In this document: piece after piece, positions 18,368 through 59,526 of the stretch
Numbering within the stretch: the first letter of the stretch is position 1
Layout: the number at the start of each line of letters is the position of its first letter
Made by a program: the position numbers and the translations under genes
NCBI RefSeq assembly: GCF_027942865.1
Contig: NC_134510.1
Span: 19,895,209 to 19,959,208, forward strand
Origin: Odontesthes bonariensis
Taxonomy: Eukaryota > Chordata > Actinopteri > Atheriniformes > Atherinopsidae
Length of the DNA: 64,000 nucleotides
Reading direction: 5' to 3'
Notes under the pieces: generated by a model
What the model was told of the DNA's origin: nothing
What the model saw: only the letters and a program-made list of their open reading frames with translations
The model's database searches: none

Positions 18368-19362
18368 CCACTCTTGCATGGCAAAAAAATCTGAAGCTCT
18401 TGTACTGGCAGTGATATATGAGACTTTAGGTTTAATGTTAATGCTTTAATTTGTTAAATTAAATCTCCCAAAACCAAAAACTCAAATGCAAGGATCCATG
18501 CTAGTAATGACAATACTCTTACCTTTGAAGAGATCTCTCCTCTTCCAAGCTAACAAATCATTGAGCTTATATTGAGCTTATTTCACTTATAAATATTTTG
18601 TTTTTCTTCTCTCTTTAGTGTAGATTAGTGATGTAAAGCATGGTGTACATGCTTATAAGGCAGAGCATTATTACATGTCGCTATTATAACACAGTGTTCT
18701 TATTCTTCCCTTGAAAGGCTGTTAAAAATTAAGATTACACCTACTTCTGTGGGCACCACTACACCTCTGGCTGAGATTATAGACATAAAAGTAATACTGC
18801 ATAACTCTGTATAATACGTTTGACAAGTTTATTTGAATTTCAACAAACATTTTCTCAATTGTTATCTATTCTAAAAAAAAAAAAATCCCTTTGATGATAA
18901 GAATGACTTTTTTTTTTACAAACCAGCGGGAATGTGACTAACCTATAATAATGTGTGTGATATGTGTACAATGATGTCAGAGTCCAGACGAGTTTAGTTT
19001 TACTGCCTATTACCAACAAAAATGAAAGATAAAAGGTGAGGTGAAGGCCACAGCTGGCGTTAGTCACTGGGTTAATGAACTCTGACTAGCGGGTATATTT
19101 ACATATGGATTTTTATATCCATATGAAAGAGAGAGCAAAATACTACTATATTTATAAAGATTTGAAAAGTTATCCTGAAAGACATTTTGTCATTTGTCTT
19201 GCTCGAGTTATTAGTGAAGTTTAGGCTACATGGAGTATCCGATGAAGAAGAAGAGCATAACATAAAATGAGCACTTTCTGGATTTGGTAATGTAATCTTA
19301 ATCTAGTTACTTACACTCTTTCCAGGGAAATTACTTGCTCATAATTTACGATAAAATAATAT
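18368..19362. other. Unannotated spacer before gpatch3
   Basis: About 1 kb of AT-rich sequence with no exon, RNA gene or recognised transposon. It contains short A/T homopolymers near 18874 and 18908. Nothing supports a gene here. Confidence 0.45.
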
Positions 19363-19375
19363 GATAATAATGATG

Positions 19376-19425
<50 letters not shown>

Positions 19426-19462
19426 GACAACAACAACAACAACAATAATAATAATAATAATC

Positions 19463-19493
<31 letters not shown>
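19363..19493. repeat. Compound (TAA)n/(CAA)n microsatellite
   Basis: About 130 bp of AAT/TAA triplets are interrupted by one ACG and a short run of CAA triplets at about 19424-19445, then return to AAT. The tract lies some 90-220 bp upstream of the gpatch3 start codon, close to or within its promoter. Such tracts are usually length-polymorphic. Confidence 0.93.
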
Positions 19494-22752: not shown

Positions 22753-25745
22753 ATGTCCACTCAGGGAGGAGTCAAACCTCTGTGCTTCGGTCAGGTGGTC
22801 ATCGGACCCCCGGGTTCAGGTAAAACCACGTACTGCCAAGGAATGCAGGAGTTCTTGACCAGCCTCGGGCGCAAGGTGGTTGTGGTGAATATGGATCCAG
22901 CCAACGAAGGAATACCATACTCCTGTGGAGTGGACATCTCGGAGCTGGTCACCCTGGACGATGTCATGGACAGCTTGAAGCTTGGGCCCAACGGCGGGCT
23001 TCTCTACTGCATGGAGTATGTGGAGGCTAACCTGGACTGGTTGGAGAATAAACTGAAAGCACACAGAGACTGTTACTTCTTGTTTGACTGTCCAGGGCAG
23101 GTTGAGCTCTACACCCACCAGAGTTCAGTAAAGAATATTTTCTCACAGTTGGCCAAGTGGAATATCAGGGTGAGCCTCCTGACCATGGGTACATGTTATT
23201 TATCTAACATCCCCTGAGCCCCCTGAAACTCAAACCTCACCACACCACACAACCCTAATTCTGCACCGAATTAACACCATAAAGGTCCCCTTCAGACTGC
23301 ATTTAGGTGTAATTATTCTCACTCTCCCACGTTTTTTCTTCTTCTTCCTTTTAGCTGGCGGCAGTGCACCTCGTGGACTCTCATTACTGCGCTGACCCTG
23401 CCAAGTTCATCTCCGTGCTGTGCACCTCTCTCTCCACCATGCTGCACGTGGAGCTTCCCCACGTCAACATCCTCTCCAAGATGGACTTAATTGAGCAGTA
23501 TGGCAAACTTGGTAAGTGAAGGGCTCTTAGCTGTACCTCCAGCAAGTTCAATTCTTCATCCACGGCGCTGACACTCTTTGCTGTGTGTACTCGTGCAGCC
23601 TTCAACCTGGACTTCTACACAGAGGTTATGGACCTGACCTATCTTCTCGATCACTTGGCCGCAGACCCCTTCTTTAAAAAATTCCACCGTCTAAACGAAA
23701 AGTTGGCAGAAGTCATACAGGATTACAGCCTCGTCTCCTTTGTGCCTCTCAATGTACAGGTATCACTGCAGTTTTGTCTTTTTTTAAAAATAAGTTCATC
23801 TGTGTGTGGCAAAGAATGAACCTCACGGACTCAACGTGGTTCACTCTACCCCATAGGAGCTAATGTTTAGGGATGCAATGTGTTGCTCTGTGTTTGTTTG
23901 CAAGTTTCTGACTTGATAGTACTTGCATGTGTTATTTTTGTAGCAGAATTTGAATGGTTGACCAGTTTTTTTTTTTTTGTTTTTTTTTGTTCCAGGTAAA
24001 GGTTTACGCACCTCTTAGCCTAGTCGCTAGTGCTGAATTACTATTTTCATCAAATAATTAGCAACAGAGTAAATCCCATTTAAGCTGCACGTTTTCACTT
24101 GTTTTATATTTTACACCATTAAGCGAGCAGCATGAAAGTAGAATCGTACGTTGCCTTTCACGTTAAATGGTGTTTTTTCTTTTTGCTCAAAATTACCAGA
24201 AGGAACCAGAAGAAAAGTTAACATGGAGATGTTTAAACTACTATGTTCAGGCTCTTGAGCTGCGAGTTGTGTGTACGGCGGCTTGTAAGCTTCTATTGCA
24301 GCATGCATATTAACACCTATGTTGAGCTTTGATTGAAGGCCAATCTCGCAGTTAAAAGATGCATTTGTTTTTACTGTCCATTTGCTATATCCGCAGCTCA
24401 TCTCAGATTTATCCCGCTGTTGGATTTATCTAAGTTTGCTCAGAGACACTGCGTGTGCACAAAGAATCCCTTTTATTACATTACTCTACATGGGTTGTAA
24501 AATAGTTACGCGCCCACAGAGCATCCAAACTGAGTAAAAGTCATCTGAGCGTCTGAAACAAATGCACTTCAGCCCCTCTGAGAAATCCCAAGTCATATTT
24601 CATCACAAATCTCTTCTCGCTTTTGGAACTGAGGATCGGACCAGTTTTCTGTGAATAGCTACGTGAATGTTACCTCTAGATGAAGAGTGATTTGATCCCG
24701 TCCGCGTCCAGAAACAGGAGTTTAGACCACGTGCCGGCTCTGAAAATGGGACTACAGAGGCACACAAAATGCGGATAGCCTCTTGTTCTAACATGGTGAA
24801 AATCCTGATGCATTTCTACTTTCTGCTCCCCCCTGAGATAACAGCCACTTGTTACCTTGGTTAACTCATATACTTCTATATGCAGCCAGTGTGAAAAGCA
24901 AAAAAAGCAACAACACCTTTGACCCTGAAAGAGAGAAAAAAAAAAAAAAACAAACTTTGTGATAGTGAAGTTTTGGAGTTTTGTGGCTTTGAATGCATCT
25001 GTTGCTTGTCTCGCCAAGCCAAACTTTGCTCAACAAAACACAAGGCTGAGGAAGCTGTTATCCCATTTTCAAGGTTTCAGAAACTCAGAAGGCCTCCTCG
25101 TGCTGTAAATCTGCACGGCGGCGGCTCAACACACTCGATAAAGCCAGACTTGTGAAAGCCCTAATACTAATATTGACTTTGCGTGCTGCTATCGTAACTC
25201 TAGAAACCAGAAATGAGAATGTCTTTAAACAGCATATTATCAAGGTTTCAGTGAGAGTTTTTCTTTTTTTCTTCCTTACAGCAAATACTTAGCAAGTGGT
25301 TAGTTTTTTTTGAGTTTCTCCAGGGAAATCCCCAGATCACATGCTGTTCTTTGCTCTCTCCAGGACAAAGAGAGCATGATTCAGGTCTTACGCACTGTGG
25401 ACAAGGCCAATGGCTACTGCTTTGGAGACCTGGAGGAGAGGAATCTGCAAGCGATGATGTCAGCTGCTGTGGGGGCCGACTTCCAGTTCAACTCGTATCC
25501 TTTCCTAATCACTGCGGCGACTCAGTGTGACTCATCCGGTTTAAGATCAAACCTAAAGGCACTTTGAGACTCAGCAATACCCTTGATTATGTCAAAAGCT
25601 AACCTGAATCTGACAACATACACCAAACATGTGAAGGTTTTATTGTGTTTTCCTTAATATTTGACCCTCTAGTACTCTTGGGGTCCAAGAAAGGTACGTC
25701 GAAACCAGTGGAAAGAGCGTGGAGGAGGAAATGATGGAGCCGTGA
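22753..25745 (+). CDS. gpn2: GPN-loop GTPase 2
   Basis: Five coding exons, 22753-23169, 23355-23511, 23599-23759, 25364-25494 and 25673-25745, join in phase to give 312 residues; the human protein has 310. Motifs: P-loop GPPGSGKT at residues 18-25, DPANE near 48-52, the family-defining Gly-Pro-Asn loop at 78-80, DCPGQ at 112-116, and SKMDL as the guanine-specificity NKxD equivalent. The protein ends [14 protein letters not shown]...MMEP. GPN GTPases act as dimers in the cytoplasm in assembly and nuclear import of RNA polymerases, mainly Pol II. The last intron is a strong U12-type candidate (listed separately). Intron 3 (23760-25363, 1.6 kb) shows no other gene. AATAAA at 26022-26027 ends the transcript. 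Confidence 0.96.
25495..25672 (+). other. Candidate U12-type (minor spliceosome) GT-AG intron in gpn2
   Basis: The donor is GTATCCTTTC, matching the U12 consensus RTATCCTTT exactly. Near the other end, TTCCTTAAT matches the U12 branch-point consensus TTCCTTRAY; the likely branch A at 25657 lies 15 nt before the exon. No pyrimidine-rich tract of U2 type precedes the AG. The splice keeps the frame (TC|T = Ser) and restores the family sequence NSTLG. Confidence 0.9.
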
Positions 25746-39400: not shown

Positions 39401-42400
39401 CTGCTCACTTTAAAAACAAACAACAACAACAAACAAAACAAGAACTTGCCTTTTTTGCAATGTCATTAAAGTCTTGTACCATGTCTGTCTGCTTCAAACT
39501 GAAGCGTCCCTCTGCTCCACAGCTGGGTCAGGCTCTCTGCAGGGCCCTCAGACACCCCAGTCCACCAGTAGCTCCATGGCTGAGGGGGGAGACCTAAAAC
39601 CTCCCACGCCGGCCTCTACTCCTCATACCCAGATGCCCCCAATGCCTCCCGGGTCCAGGTAACTGTCAAATAAGATTTTACTAATGGATCTTTGCTTATG
39701 AAAAAGCACGGTGATCAGTGCAACCGGTTTAATTCTGCCTCTTGTTCACGGTACCTCTGTCCTAGGAGCAGCGTTAACCTGCAGGACCCCTTCTCTGATG
39801 GAAGTGACCCCACTTTCCCCAGGAAGAACATGACACCCAACTCCACCTATCAGTCAGGCATGAACACACCAGACATGCAGGGTAGAATGGGACCCTACGA
39901 ACCCAACAAAGACCCCTTCGGTAACATGCGGAAAGGTAGGCGCACTGAATGTACTCATGCCATCATATAGTCCAAGTTGAAATTGGCGTTCCAGTTTGTC
40001 TCTTACGTGATGTAATTAAATTCTGAACTTGTTTCCAGTCGGGGAGCAGTTTCTTCCTACTAACCAGGGCCCTAACAGTGTCGTGGGTGACCAACAGCAG
40101 CAGCCGCCACAACAACAGCCTCCGTTCAATAGAGGACCGCCTGGGGCCATGGGCACGATGCCAATGGGGCCCCGACAGCAGTATCCTTATGGACCAGGCT
40201 ATGACAGGAGGTGAGAGACTGTAACTTTGTTTTTTTAATTGAAACTTTTCAATTCAGGAGGAGCAGGTCTAACTTTTAGTTACAGCAGAAATTAATTTCA
40301 TTTGATTTTTTTTTTTTTTTTTTTTTTTTTGTCATCTGAAGAAAAGGTATTTTATGAAAAGATGGGTGTTAAGTTTCCAATGTACTTCCATGTTTTGTTG
40401 TGGTGATCGATGATAGAATTGTATGATTTTATCTTTATCTGTTTGTCTCGTGTCGGTCGGTGACACACAGGGTGCTGATTCTGTCTTTTGAGGCAGAAAA
40501 GCGTCCATAAACAGAAATGAGACTTTTGAAAATGGAATCGTTGTACATACATTTAAAAATGCATGGTCGACTTTTTAATTTGGTCCGTTGAATTATTGGA
40601 AAAATGAAAAATCTTTGATTTAACTTGCATCAACCAAGTCACCCCTGTATTTTTTTTTATTTAACTGTGCGGAGAGCTGTTGTTTTGCAGACAAACTACA
40701 AAGCAAATCAGTCCATCAAAAATGACAGGATTTCAATTTTCATTTCTTTGAGCTTATTTTCAAACCGTCCATTACAGCTTATTACTTTGTTAAAGGTTTG
40801 TGTGAGTACCTGTAATATCCCTATTAAGCCACTTTTCTCAGTGTTTTGTCATCAAACCGGATGTTAAAAATAGCCCATCAAAGAAGCTCTTGTACCTGAT
40901 TAATGTTAGTCCCCGGCTTATGATGAAGACGGTATTTTCTTTTTTCCTTTTAATTTGTTGTGTGCTTTTTTTGGAGCTGTTGTCCTGGTGTTTTTATTTT
41001 ATTTATACGTGTCGGACATAATTTGTGTTTAGCCAAAGCACGGAAAGCAAAGAAAATGACCTCGTGTGCTTTCCCGCTTTTTCCCAGGTCGGAACAAGGA
41101 ATGGGCCCGGAGGGCAACATGGGATCCGGTGCTCCTCAGCCAAACCCTATGATGCCTGCCAACGCCGACACGGGGATGTATTCGCCAAATCGCTTCCCAC
41201 CACAGCAGCCACGGTCAGTTCACTCAACAACTGATTGGCAGACTTCTTGGCTTTAAAACTGCTGTCAGTGGAACCTGATTGTTCTTTTTTACGTAAACAA
41301 GAATATTGTCTCTGAAAGGTTTCAGTGCCGGAAATGTAATAATAAACTCTTTTTTTTTTCTTCTTTTTTTTTCTTCTTTTTTTTTCTTTTTTTTTTAAAG
41401 CAGCTGGTTTCTTCCAGTATTGCAGTCAATTTATAGGCCCAATTTTTGGTCACATCACGAACATCAGATCTTGTTGGTCATTTCTCTTGGATATCCAGTC
41501 TTTGGACATCCAGTCCAAATGTAGTTATATGTCGACAGCCTTTTGGTTTGGTCTCTTTCGTAAATGATTGTGGTGCGAGAAGCAGGTGGCTGCATTGATT
41601 GAAATGTACTATTAATTTTGAACGTGGGAATTCGATTTAAAATGGCTCGATGCTAATAATATTCACTTATACTTAGTGGTGCAGTGTACAGAGAAAGGGT
41701 TATAAAAATGACATTTTCTACTTATTTTACATTATAGATTTGAGGGGAAAAGAAGGAGATTTAAGAGACTGTTATTTATAAATTTGTCACAAACTGCATG
41801 TGTTACCACTGAGTCAGAGATGCAGAAGATTTAAATGTTCAAACTGACTAGGCTTTAATGTTTGCAGGCTTGATTCCTATGGTAATCAGTATCCTGGACA
41901 GGGAGCGCCCCCTACTGGTTCTTACCCAAATCAGCAGCCTGGAATGTACCCACAACCGGTAAATTATCCATCTGCACGACCAACTCAAACTACACTCAGT
42001 ACACTGGGATCAGATTTGAAAGTTGTACTTTTTAATTAAGTGTGTCTGTGCAGTGCCACGCTCTCTGTCATTCATTTTGAATGACAGAGAGCAGAAAAAA
42101 CAAATTGTGAGCAACTTGATTTTTCCAGAACAGTTCTGTTGATGTGTTGTGTAATTGGATGTTTCTCTGTCCGCCATTTTCTGTAGAGTTACAAGCGTCC
42201 TGTGGAAGGAGGTTACCCTCCATCTAAACGCCATGAGACTGAATACAGCGGCCCTTTTCCTGTTGGACAACAAGCACCGCAGCAACAACAGCAAGGAGGC
42301 TCCCCTGCACCAACTTCAGGACAGCAGGATTCGTACAATCAGTACGGCGGCAGCGGGCCCTACCCCGGGCCTGACCGTCGTCCACCTGGCCCCGGCAATC

Positions 42401-46887: not shown

Positions 46888-48120
46888 TGCACTGTATTGC
46901 CAAAAGTATACGCTCATCTGTCTTTACACGTATATGAACTTAAGTGACATCCCATTCTTAATCCATATAGGTTTAATATGATGCTGGCCCACCTTTTGCA
47001 GCTATAACTGCTTCAACTGTTCTGGGCAAACTTTCCACAAGGTTTAGGAGTGTGTTTATGGGAATATTTGACCAGTCTTCCAGAAGCGCAGACACTTATG
47101 TTGGACCAGAAGGCCTGGCTCGCAGTCTCTGCTCTAATTCATCCCAAAGCTGTTCTATCGGGTTGAGGTCAGGAATCTGTGCAGGCCAGTCAAGTCCTTC
47201 CACACCAAGCTCGCTCATCCATGTCTTTATGGACCTTGCTTTGTGCACTGGTGCAGCAGTCATGTTGGAACAGGAAGGGGCCATCCCCTTAACTGTTTCC
47301 ACAAAGTTGGGAGCATGAAATTGTCCAAAATCTATATGCTGAAGTATTGGGAGTTCCTTTCACTGGAACTAAGGGGCTAAGCCCAGCTCCTGAAAAACAA
47401 CCCCACACCATAATCCCCCCTCCACCAAACTTTACACTTGCCACAATGCAGTCAGACAGGTAACGTTCTCCTGGCAGCCGCCAAACCCAGACTCATCCAT
47501 CAGATTAACAGATGGAGCAGCGTGATTTGTCACTCCAGAGAACGCGTCTCCACCGCTCTGGAGTCCAGCGGCGGCGTGCTTTACACCACTGCATCCGACC
47601 CTTTGCATTGCACTTGGTGATGTATGGCTTGGATGCAGCTGCTCGGCCATGGAAACCCATTCCATGAAGCTCTGTACGCGCTGTTCTTGAGCTAATCTGA
47701 AGGTCACTTGACGTTTGGAGGTCCGCGCTAAAGTCTGCAGAAAGTTGGCGACCTCTGCGCACTGTGCGCCTCAGCATCTGCTAAACCTGCTCTGTCATTT
47801 TACGTGGCCTACCACGTGGCTGAGTTGCTGTCGTTCACAATGTATTTTACTTTGTTATAATACCACCGACAGTTGACTGTGGAATATTTAGTAGCGAGGA
47901 AATTTCCCGACTGTCCTTGTTGCAGAGGTGGCATCCTATCACGGTACCACGCTGGAGTTCACTGAACTCCTGAAAGCGAGCCATTCTTTCTCAAATGTTT
48001 GAAGAAGCAGTCTGCATGTCCAGTTGCTTGAATTTATAAACCTGTGGCCATGGAAGTGATTGAAACACCTGAATTTAATGATCTGGATGGATGAGTGAAT
48101 ACTTTGGGCAACATAGTGTA
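46888..48120 (-). mobile_element. Tc1/mariner-family DNA transposon, degraded
   Basis: The 1.23 kb unit has imperfect inverted ends: TATTGCCAAAAGTATACGCT at the left and, read from the right, TGTTGCCCAAAGTATTCACT. It ends at TA dinucleotides or their decayed form. The transposase runs on the minus strand. Recognisable pieces are ELHGMGFHGRAAASKPYIT, CNAKGRMQWCKARRRWTPE with VLWSDKSR (second catalytic region), and DWPAQIPDLNPIEQLWDELE with RLRARP near the C-terminus. Frames are broken by several stops and shifts, and parts such as the DNA-binding region survive only as weak similarity, so it cannot make an active enzyme. It sits between arid1a and pigv with no effect on either coding region. 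Confidence 0.9.
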
Positions 48121-48676
48121 TGCGGATTAGCATCAGTCACAAGACGTTATGCAGCGTCTCCTACTGGAAAGAAACTTCAGTATATGAAAATTTCATAACA
48201 ACAATTGTCGCTAAATAATAGTCTCCACGCCAGCGAACGCTAAAGATATCATGGTCAATAAATGATTAATAATATGTTAAAGGAACAAAATAAAGATAAA
48301 CATTTATTGTATCGTTACGAAGAAGGCGCCAAAGCTTTTGTTTTGATTCTAGGTTTCCGCACCGGAAGTAAAAGAGCTGTTTGAAAGGAAGTTTCCTGCT
48401 TCAGGATGAGGATGTGAGGACAAAGCTTGTAGCTAAGCGACAAATAAATGCTGCTCGAAGAAGAATTCCCCTTATGGTGGAATTTTGTTTTTATTTACCA
48501 TCTCTGTATTGGATAAACTATTAAAACGTTTTAAAGCTAATTTCTAGATAATTTCCCCCCTTCTAGCTAGTTATGTTTTATGGAAAACATGTCCAATCCA
48601 GTATTGAGTGCCTCGTAGCAGCCGCAGTGCTCATGGCTGTCATAACCGGCTTTTCCACATTTTGTCCGTCTCATCA
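48121..48676. other. pigv promoter and 5' leader region
   Basis: No coding exon of another gene. An ETS motif at 48361 and the lack of a TATA box point to a housekeeping promoter for pigv. The leader extends to the start codon at 48677; no clear non-coding splice could be fixed. Confidence 0.4.
48361..48370 (+). promoter_or_regulatory. ETS-family site in the pigv promoter
   Basis: ACCGGAAGTA matches the ETS/GABPA consensus and lies about 300 bp before the pigv start. A second GGAAGT-type core (AGGAAGTTTCC) follows about 20 bp later. Role inferred from motif and position. Confidence 0.45.
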
Positions 48677-54662: not shown

Positions 54663-57600
54663 ATGAAGAACTGCGAGTACCAGCAGATCGACCCGCGGGC
54701 GCTATCGGTGCAGCCGCTGTCGGTGCAGAACCACACCGAGAGGAAGGCGCAGTGTTCGCAGAGAAAATGGGAAGTGTTCCCAGGGAAGAACAGGTTTTTC
54801 TGCGATGGACGGCTCATCCTAGCCAGACAGAGCGGCATCCTTCCTCTGACACTGGGCCTTATTGTTGTCACCTGTGGCCTTTTCTTTGCATTTGAGTGAG
54901 TAACTTGTTCCCGTGTACGCCTGTTTCACAGGTCCTGACTGAAACATGAGAGGGGTATGCTGGCGTGCATGTGGAAGTTGTAGAAGTCTTCTTTTTGCAG
55001 GGTTTTGTATCATATATGTGTTGATTAACGATGGTTTCTCTTCCGCAGTTGCCCGTTCCTAGTGGAGCACCTGACCGTCTTCATACCTGTGATAGGTGGG
55101 GTGCTTTTTGTGTTTGTGGTCATGTCCCTGATGAGAACCAGCTTTACAGACCCAGGCATTTTACCCAGGGCTACCCCAGATGAAGCTGCAGACATAGAGA
55201 GGCAGATAGGTAAGGCATCCCTGCTGTGGGACAGATGGATATAAGAGCTTTGCCATATGGAAGACTTGTTTGTTGTTGAACTGCAGACCCGCACCTAAGC
55301 AGATTACTCTGTCATGTCTGAGGAGCAGCAACACTAGACGTACCCCAAACGTATTTGTTTATAGAGATGTTACGGTATCACGTGTTGGCTTCTTAGGTCA
55401 AATGCTTTGATGAAATGTGGACGTGTCAGTGAGTGACTACCCCTGGTCTATTTTAAGATACCTCAGGATCATCAACATATCGCCCCCCTCCGCGCACCAG
55501 GGAGATCCTCATCAACCAGCAGGTGGTAAAGCTCAAGTACTGCTTTACTTGTAAGATGTTCCGCCCTCCTCGGACCTCCCACTGCAGTCTGTGTGACAAC
55601 TGTGTTGGTAAGGTTGTTGCAGCTGCAGAGAGTATATCATGATGCTGTTTGACAGGAGGGTGTTTTGTTTCCCCCTCCGTGAAGTTTTCCTTATGCTTTT
55701 AATTGTTGATTCCCATTTTCTTGATTGGGAATGTAAGGATTGATTGGCTGCTGTCTGATTTAATCAAACTGTGTTATGTGACCTGGAATATTCCATCTTC
55801 AGCTCATGTCAACACCAGAACTGCTAATCCCATGTTTCTAACCCCTGCCATGTGCTTTTTTTTTTTTTCTTCCCCCCTCCCATCAGAACGATTTGATCAC
55901 CACTGCCCATGGGTGGGGAACTGTGTTGGAAAGCGCAATTACCGCTTCTTCTACAGCTTCATCATCTCTCTGTCTTTTCTGACGTCTTTCATATTTGGCT
56001 GCGTCGTCACACACATCACCTTGCGTAAGTATGCGAGAGGATGGAAAGGAATGACTGTTTTAAGAGGACTGTTTCCTGATTCATCTTTTCTCTTCCAGGT
56101 TCTCAAGCAGGCAAAAGCCTTGTTCAAGCCATTCAGGAGAGCCCTGCGAGATATCCTTTGACGAGCTGGTTTTTATGCTAAGAAATGGCAGAACTTGTAG
56201 TGTGGCTGAGGCGTTTCCTACAGCTCATTTGATCGGATCAGACAGTTGGCATCATACAAAGCAGTGCTTTTAGGCAGATGGCTTTCCAGTAGCAAGTGTG
56301 CTGCCTTGGGAACTCGGAAGGCGATGTCAGTGCCTAGACGGATAAAGAAATGTAGTACTACATTTTGTTATCCACAAAGAGGTTGTGCGTTAACTTCCTC
56401 ATGGTGTGTATGACATGCAAGACATTGTTATCAGTTTCTTAGTGTCGGTGTGGGTGTATTTCTGAATTTAGAGGCATTTATTAGGTCTTTTTATTTATGA
56501 AATGTTTCTTCGGGTGATGTACCTTCAGCAACTTGTGGCATTGGGTTTCCAGTGCGAGTCAATTCATGAATCATACTTGACTTTATTGGTCATGAATTCT
56601 GAGAAAACGATTGCCTCAAGAATTTATTTGTCACGACGGGAGGACAACAAGTTCAATTTAAGTTGCTTTTGTAGCTCTGACTGCCTCATATCCTCAGTGA
56701 CCTTTGGCCTTGACTCATCCTTGTGCACTGTGGTGGAGTTGGTGATTTGTTTCTTCTCCATTTGGTCTATTCTGGGCCTCTCGGGCTTCCATACATACTT
56801 AGTGGCCTCCAATCTCACCACAAATGAAGATGTAAGTAAAGATGTTACACAATGACAAAACTGAATTTGTGATTGATGCTCGGTTTAAAATGCTTTGAAA
56901 GCCATCAACTTTTCCATGTCCATTAACAGATTAAAGGGTCTTGGTCAAGTAAAAGGGGTGCAGAGGAGTCTGGGAACCCGTACAGTTACAGCAACATTAT
57001 AACCAACTGCTGTGTGACGTTATGTGGCCCCATGCCCCCGAGGTAAGTAACAATGTCAGGAGCCTTCATGATCTCGCACATTTTTATTCCTATGATACCC
57101 CCCCCTACTGTTCATTACCAGCTAACATGCTGCATGAACTTTGCTTGTGGTCCAAATTTTTGTGCTTTGTAACAGAATCCTCTGTTCTGTTCTTTAGTCT
57201 GATTGACAGAAGAGGTTTCCTTCCTCCCAATGAAGCGGTCCCTGCTGCTTCTGCCTCGGAGGTAGAACTGCCTTCCTTCACAGCCAAGAACGACGTAAAC
57301 ATGGTAGGATGAAACAGCTTGTGGTCCCTTCCGAGTCCCGACTGCCCCGTAGCTCAAGTGCAATTTTTAGCCCTACCCACCCGCTGTGTCCTCCTACATC
57401 CTCCAGACCTCCAACTTCAGCCTCTCTAAGTAGTTGGCTACCTGAAATGCCATTAATGTCTTCCCAATGTGTCTATGTATTATCACTGAAAGTAAAAAAA
57501 AAAAAAAGGGGGAAAGGGGGGCGTGTAATTATTTCACCATTTCTGAGTGCTTTATCATCAACTTCAGTAGGCTAGTGTAAGCAGCTCAGAACTTGCACAA

Positions 57601-59526
57601 TACAAAGCAAAGTAGTCACAGCAGAACTGATTAAACAAGCTCATTAGAGATGGAAATATAGAGAAATTCTGTGAGATTTTTCTGCCAGACATGTAACAAT
57701 ATGTTACGGTCAGTGTTGAGTGACTTGGTGGCTGACAGGACGTCAGACAGCTGCAGATGTGTAGTGGTCTTATTTTTATCAGGTACACCCCTGAATCGTG
57801 GCACTTTTTGTTCTTATTGTGTTATTTGTTGGCTCAGACTTCAGGAATTCAATGCTTTGCTGTGTCATGCTCCTTGTTACCGAACTGCTGAGTCGGCTTC
57901 TATGTTGTAGTGAAGGTTTATGCAAACAAACTAGTGTTTAAATGCTGTGTTTTGTCAGCACGTGCAGGTGGAAACCCGCTGGGTCATCGGCACTGTATCG
58001 AGAAACATTTATCACACGCCTCGAATATGTTTGTCTTAATGATGTCAACATATCAAAAGTCTGTTATTTGCAATGTATGTTGCTTTATAACACATTTTTA
58101 TTTTTACATGCATACGCAGGTTTTCTTTTATTTGTTGAATAAACATTATTTTTGTATTTTGAAGGATTTGGTCTGTTTTGAGTTGAGTTTTTTTTTTTTG
58201 GAAAATGTTTGGAAGAAGTTGTGATCTGTGTTTTGCTTTTTTTTTTATTTTAATTTAATTTTTTATTCTTTCTTCAGGAATGTGTTAACGAACAGAATGA
58301 CTTATGCATCATGAACCTTACGTACGGGTGTATCTTAAAAGCTACACGAGAGATCTGACACTCAGTGTTGTGCTGTATCCATTCCCCTCTGCTAGGAGGA
58401 GAACTGTCAGGATTTTTCATTGTCCTGCACAGCCTGAAGGGCACTGCTGCATGTAGACAGTTGATGGTAAGAGTAGGGCCGAACATTAAACCAATCACAT
58501 CATCTCTTCACTCGCCATTCACTGAATCTTCTGTAGTGTTATATTTGAGGTTGTTTTTGCATTCGCTGTTAACCTGACGTTTACGTTTTCCTTTTTGCAT
58601 CCACCCAAAATTGGCTTTTTTCCTTTTTTTTGGTTTTGTTTTTAGATCTTGTGATTGGTTTGTGGCGAGGGTGTGGATCACTGTTTACATGTGACTGTGC
58701 ATGCTTCATGATCATCATTCTACTACCCATTAACATGTGTTCGCTCACTCAGCGCTGGATGAAGCTTGGTGTTGAAGGGCTGATGATCTTGTTGGATTTG
58801 CTCTCATTACAGTTGGGTGTTGTTGTGCATGCATGGTGACACAAACCAATACAAGTCTACTCTTTGAGTCAGAAACCCAGGATGAAGCAGCTTGTCAACT
58901 CATCTAACTCTCTCTGTACCCATGTTCAATATGTTTGCCTTATCTCACTGTCTGCGTCTTAACTCACCTCCTCTATGCTTCTCCATTTGAATCTGTTGAC
59001 GGTGCTGTCGTCAGGGCTCTCATTGCTTTTACTGCGATTATGAGTTCCAAACTAATCCTCTGAATCACATTGCAGAATATTTGATGCACGCTTGCCCTGT
59101 CTTACATGTTGTAATCGCTGCTTCATCTTCTCATAAAGCAGTGCGCTCAGTTTTCTTCTCTTTTCCTCTTCTTTTCCCTGCTTCCTCCTCTTCACGCAGT
59201 GCACTCAGAGCACAAAGGACATATTGGAGAGGATGGTCCACTCCTCCGACTTTCACTGCTTGTGCCCTCCAGGGACCCCAAAGACCATCCCACTGAACCA
59301 GGAGGTTCCCAGCGCCGCAGCACCAACCCCAGAGCCTTCACCCTCCGCTGGCTGCTCACGACAGCCTTTAGCTGCTCCTTGTCCCACATTCAGCAGAAGC
59401 GACAACAAGGACTCGCTGCACTCGATCAATCCAGCCTTCCGCCTGGCTTCTCCGTCACCATCGCTCAGCCGCACCGCCCTGATTCTGGGCAGTGCGCCTG
59501 ACCTTGGTTTTATCCCTTTGCAGTGA
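54663..59526 (+). CDS. zdhhc18: Palmitoyltransferase ZDHHC18
   Basis: Nine coding exons: 54663-54895, 55049-55209, 55458-55607, 55887-56024, 56099-56150, 56729-56831, 56930-57042, 57198-57303 and 59200-59526, giving 460 residues. Reading through the exon 8 donor instead gives Val-Gly-stop at 57312 and 354 residues. The start matches [13 protein letters not shown] of the family. Four transmembrane helices lie near residues 58-78, 86-106, 203-225 and 246-268. The zinc-binding cysteine-rich domain runs from about 158 ([20 protein letters not shown]) to the catalytic Asp-His-His-Cys at 185-188, and TTNE follows the last helix. The enzyme S-acylates cytosolic-face proteins at Golgi membranes; H-Ras is a known substrate of the mammalian form. 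Exon 5 is followed by an AT-AC intron. ZDHHC14 and ZDHHC18 are close relatives, but the N-terminus, the RGF end and pigv linkage favour 18. Confidence 0.94.
56151..56728 (+). other. Candidate U12-type AT-AC intron in zdhhc18
   Basis: The intron begins ATATCCTTTG, an exact match to the U12 AT-AC donor, and ends CTTGTGCAC with terminal AC. GCCTTGACT fits the U12 branch-point consensus, with the branch A at 56713, 15 nt before the next exon. No GT-AG alternative restores the family sequence [13 protein letters not shown], while this splice does so exactly (AG|T = Ser). Confidence 0.93.
57304..59199 (+). other. zdhhc18 last intron, or 3' UTR of the short form
   Basis: For the long form this is an intron with donor GTAGGA and acceptor TTCACGCAG. 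For the short form it is the last two codons, a stop and a 3' UTR of about 830-850 nt ending after the AATAAA at 58138-58143, which is followed by a TTTGGTCTGTTTTGAG G/T-rich element. No other gene was found inside. Confidence 0.6.
58138..58143 (+). terminator. Poly(A) signal for the short zdhhc18 transcript
   Basis: A canonical AATAAA with a downstream G/U-rich stretch lies inside the last intron of the long form. It offers a 3' end for a transcript that reads through the exon 8 donor to the stop at 57312. Use is inferred. Confidence 0.55.

Follow-up and report, generated by a model that had tools for sequence, protein, structure and literature searches.

Intron 5 of a zdhhc18 gene in Odontesthes bonariensis reads as a U12-type AT-AC intron

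Agreement of the donor, the branch element, their spacing, the C at position +5, the reading frame and homology makes a U12-type AT-AC intron the best reading of intron 5 in a zdhhc18 gene of Odontesthes bonariensis. It lies within the 64,000-nt stretch of DNA analysed here (the window). The earlier note had described a minor-class AT-AC intron at these coordinates, pointing to the donor, a CCTTGAC 15 nt from the end and a terminal AC; the letters are as it gave them, with complete matches of 9/9 and 7/7 to the U12-type consensus, and its class assignment is supported by all the features just named. The intron is almost certainly an ordinary, functional member of its class, and we infer from the sequence that the minor spliceosome removes it in the animal.

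The gene and its fifth intron

The coding region was modelled from homology and splice consensus, with boundaries placed by eye. Its parts, and the elements of intron 5, are as follows.

54663..59526, + strand: zdhhc18 coding region, nine exons, 460 aa
54663-54895, 55049-55209 and 55458-55607, + strand: exons 1-3
55887-56024, 56099-56150 and 56729-56831, + strand: exons 4-6
56930-57042, 57198-57303 and 59200-59526, + strand: exons 7-9
56099..56150, + strand: exon 5, 52 nt, ending ...IQESPA(S)
56151..56728, + strand: intron 5, 578 nt, phase 2, AT-AC, read as U12-type from sequence and the homology-based join
56151..56159, + strand: putative U12-type 5' splice site ATATCCTTT, 9/9 to RTATCCTTT
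56708..56714, + strand: putative U12-type branch element CCTTGAC, 7/7 to CCTTRAY, with branch A at 56713
56727..56728, + strand: 3' splice site AC (GTGCAC/TGTGG, the slash marking the cut)
56729..56831, + strand: exon 6, 103 nt, opening with (S) and encoding the last helix

The product contains a DHHC palmitoyltransferase domain (124.2 bits to Pfam DHHC, for which the cut-off is 28.7), and human ZDHHC9 is the best match among eight solved relatives (425.5 bits over residues 33-332). The upstream neighbours are an exon with a BAF250_C domain (arid1a) and then a PIG-V gene. We prefer the name zdhhc18 to zdhhc14 or zdhhc9 mainly because this arrangement matches the human 1p36 order, which we take to be ARID1A-PIGV-ZDHHC18. 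By gene order, the nine-exon gene is thus probably zdhhc18. No relative of the part spanning exons 4-8 was encoded in the 39 genome and 10 viral pattern-matched contigs.

Exon 5 ends in GCGAG at 56150 and intron 5 starts with ATATCCTTTG at 56151. The intron ends in GGCCTTGACTCATCCTTGTGCAC, its last letters GTGCAC reaching 56728, and exon 6 starts with TGTGG at 56729, so that the codon for Ser245 is split as AG/T. The branch A at 56713 lies 15 nt before the last base of the intron, slightly above the optimal distance of 11-13 nt between branch A and 3' end (PMC6717393). The base preceding CCTTGAC is G, against the T of TCCTTRAY. The last 20 bases include 14 pyrimidines, within the range of 11-18 seen in 11 major-class introns here, and no long polypyrimidine run before the 3' end is visible by eye.

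The donor of intron 5 matches the major-class hexamer GTRAGT at 2/6 positions. The seven other zdhhc18 introns are all GT-AG, with 4-6/6 matches to GTRAGT and at most 5/9 to the U12-type donor. Across 14 modelled introns of gpn2, pigv and zdhhc18, the U12-type donor is complete (9/9) in two, zdhhc18 intron 5 and the last gpn2 intron, and reaches at most 6/9 in the other 12.

A near-copy of the U12-type donor, ATATCCTC, occurs within intron 5 at 56688-56695 (+ strand), 20 nt before the branch element. It is probably there by chance; a role as an enhancer-like second U11 site was considered and dropped, with no support for it beyond the letters. At gathering thresholds nothing in the window matched Rfam, and a scan of intron 5 for bacterial-type promoters and terminators, which are irrelevant here, found none.

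Homology and the choice of splice pair

Across both strands of the window, the 9-base donor ATATCCTTT is present at a single site, which is on the + strand. We nevertheless gave up motif rarity as an argument. An AT-AC composite, defined as a 9-base AT donor, CCTTRAY and an AC at 9-20 nt with a spacing of 60-5000 nt, appeared in 65/400 single 64-kb strands simulated with a Markov model, and in 169/400 when an 8-base donor was allowed. U12-type motifs by themselves are thus not rare, because simulated strands often hold such a composite. Judged from the letters, the strength of the case is that homology fixes the junction on which the motifs land. The alignment to human ZDHHC9 runs gap-free across the exon 5-6 junction and fixes the join to within a few bases. 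The chance of meeting the donor at one homology-fixed position is about 5e-6, and that of meeting a branch element within the 12 permitted positions is about 0.004; their product is about 2e-8.

All AT-AC, GT-AG and GC-AG pairs leading from exon 5 to exon 6 were listed and tested (n=2410). The interval holds 777, 811 and 822 such pairs, respectively, of which 23, 11 and 44 leave the frame open; only 56151-56728 retains both the frame and the family length. Scored against human ZDHHC9, this join reaches 704, followed by 689 for the next AT-AC pair, 674 for the best GT-AG pair and 694 for the best GC-AG pair, in which junction residues are lost and replaced. The claim of the earlier note that only this splice joins the family sequence therefore holds among standard ends (1/2410) but not beyond them: six joins with non-standard ends, slid by 1-6 bases, score 705-714, because a Thr then falls where ZDHHC9 has Thr. 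Their ends (CG-GT, GA-CA, AG-GC, GA-TG, GC-TG and TG-TT) are not standard splice ends. The same six came out on top whether non-standard pairs were limited to ≤60 nt of the length of intron 5 or all were run.

A competing major-class path alongside U12-type removal of intron 5, whether through a twintron or through another isoform that stays in frame, is very unlikely. Introns with both kinds of site are known from fly prospero and CG3294 (PMC2831892, Table 2), and 55/1633 GT-AG and GC-AG pairs here leave an open frame; however, twelve top-scoring joins viewed by eye, six drawn from GT-AG and GC-AG pairs together and six from GT-AG pairs, include none that combines a strong major-class donor with a strong acceptor.

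AT-AC ends alone leave the class undecided, because AT-AC introns spliced by the major machinery exist as well (PMC2831892, PMC6717393). The sodium-channel introns of this kind all carry G at +5 (PMC2831892), and position +5 of intron 5 is C, not G. Even less probable than a second path, and rejected after all GT-AG and GC-AG pairs had been tested, is removal of intron 5 by the major spliceosome through a nearby GT-AG or GC-AG pair, with the AT-AC motifs a coincidence: the frequency of the composite in simulated strands and the open frame kept by 11/811 GT-AG and 44/822 GC-AG pairs speak for it, but family length is kept by 0/55 of these open-frame pairs, length changes run from 13 to 32 residues in the six top GT-AG joins and from 1 to 19 in the six top GC-AG joins, which also have junction residues replaced or broken up, and neither type reaches the 704 of the AT-AC join.

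Proposed splicing and its consequences for the protein

In U12-type introns the donor pairs first with U11 and later with U6atac, and the branch element pairs with U12. If intron 5 is removed as a U12-type AT-AC intron, U11 and subsequently U6atac would pair with its ATATCCTTT donor, and U12 would pair with CCTTGAC, the A at 56713 being bulged out. A cut after the AC at 56728 would then join the two parts of the Ser245 codon in frame. A transcript that keeps intron 5 would probably be degraded, so that the full-length enzyme would need minor splicing.

A hydropathy scan of the product finds hydrophobic segments at residues 51-111, 202-227 and 242-267, with the DHHC motif at 185. We read segment 51-111 as a merged TM1 and TM2 and segment 202-227 as TM3. 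Codon 245, which intron 5 interrupts, falls on the border of the final hydrophobic segment, the last helix, and TM3 with the loop that follows it sits between the DHHC motif and the intron. In DHHC enzymes the loop before the last helix is lumenal. Since intron 5 comes after TM3 and its loop, the nearest loop would be the lumenal one, and not the second cytosolic loop that the earlier note put on the other side of the intron from the last helix.

Retention of intron 5 adds ten foreign residues before a stop, giving 254 aa in place of 460 aa and removing the C-terminal tail. Skipping of exon 5 or exon 6 breaks the frame and leaves products of 232 and 268 aa, respectively. The last helix is lost in all three cases. 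Decay of the retained or skipped transcripts is expected because their stops precede later exon junctions. From this frame analysis the enzyme is predicted to depend on the minor spliceosome; full-length ZDHHC18 would be tied to that machinery and would serve as a readout in minor-spliceosome mutants.

Relation to other U12-type introns

Intron 5 resembles vertebrate AT-AC U12-type introns in its donor, branch element and ends, and in being one minor intron amid major ones. The only difference found among the properties tested is that its branch A is slightly far from the 3' end. The earlier note had called AT-AC introns a small minority of the U12-type class; the IAOD table refines this to 22% in zebrafish and 26% in human (PMC7367187). 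For zebrafish, a total of 662 U12-type introns is given, spread over 612 genes, and zrsr2 mutants retain 218 of these introns (PMC9501576). The median length given there is 451 nt for retained and 1398 nt for non-retained introns, and intron 5, with 578 nt, is near the former. Palmitoylation appears among the functions of the zrsr2-affected genes, in a statement that leaves the gene unnamed (PMC9501576).

ZDHHC8, like zdhhc18, encodes a DHHC palmitoyltransferase and has a U12-type intron, which is listed for human and fly CG32705 in an entry that also names ananassae and Anopheles (PMC2831892, Table 2); fly CG34449 is entered as the ZDHHC8 U12 gene elsewhere (PMC2952598, Table 1). As listed, the ZDHHC8 intron is GT-AG, in contrast to the AT-AC of zdhhc18 intron 5. 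ZDHHC16 is mentioned in an SF3B1 setting, and the final ZDHHC8 intron is reported as retained in tumours (PMC4863743, PMC10705125). The zdhhc18 and ZDHHC8 introns might share their codon position and go back to a single ancestral intron that predates the split of the enzyme groups, with a later change of subtype between AT-AC and GT-AG, but we consider this rather unlikely. If true, dependence on the minor spliceosome would be ancient in this branch of palmitoyltransferases.

In a literature search whose reach stopped short of supplementary tables, U12DB, IAOD and MIDB, neither ZDHHC18 nor ZDHHC14 was found with 'minor intron', and ZDHHC18 with 'U12' matched only papers that seem unrelated by title. 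Intron 5 may already be present in intron databases. We regard it as sound but ordinary, because AT-AC ends account for 22% of the class in zebrafish and the ZDHHC8 case is in print; features of this kind are well known, and zdhhc18 is a further gene that carries one.

A second candidate lies in the same window, in a gene with a Pfam ATP_bind_1 domain that we take to be gpn2.

22753-23169, 23355-23511, 23599-23759, 25364-25494 and 25673-25745, + strand: gpn2 exons (Pfam ATP_bind_1)
25495-25672, + strand: last gpn2 intron, 178 nt, phase 2, GT-AG, with U12-type motifs

The intron has the donor GTATCCTTT (9/9) and the branch element CCTTAAT (7/7), and looks like a U12-type intron of the GT-AG subtype. 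Its case rests on the junction, because a GT-AG composite with an 8-base donor occurs in 159/400 simulated strands of the same length. Among 160 GT-AG pairs tried, two place both flanking motifs in one frame, and the second of these, starting at 25525, inserts ten residues. The gpn2 intron shares with zdhhc18 intron 5 a U12-type donor, a branch element and phase 2; it differs in its GT-AG ends, its length of 178 nt and its gene. With one intron of each kind, the window would hold both U12-type subtypes. GPN2 was not named among the literature matches listed.

Some further elements were seen in the window. A donor-like motif, GTATCCTT, at 40181-40188 (+ strand) is off any junction, within an apparent coding exon of arid1a. 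Between arid1a and pigv, a Tc1/mariner-like element spans about 46890-48122, with inverted ends recognised by eye; positions 47096-47359 match DDE_3 on the - strand, and its transposase is seemingly split over several frames, again by eye. An ATA microsatellite of about 48 copies occupies 19351-19492, upstream of an open frame that resembles gpatch3.
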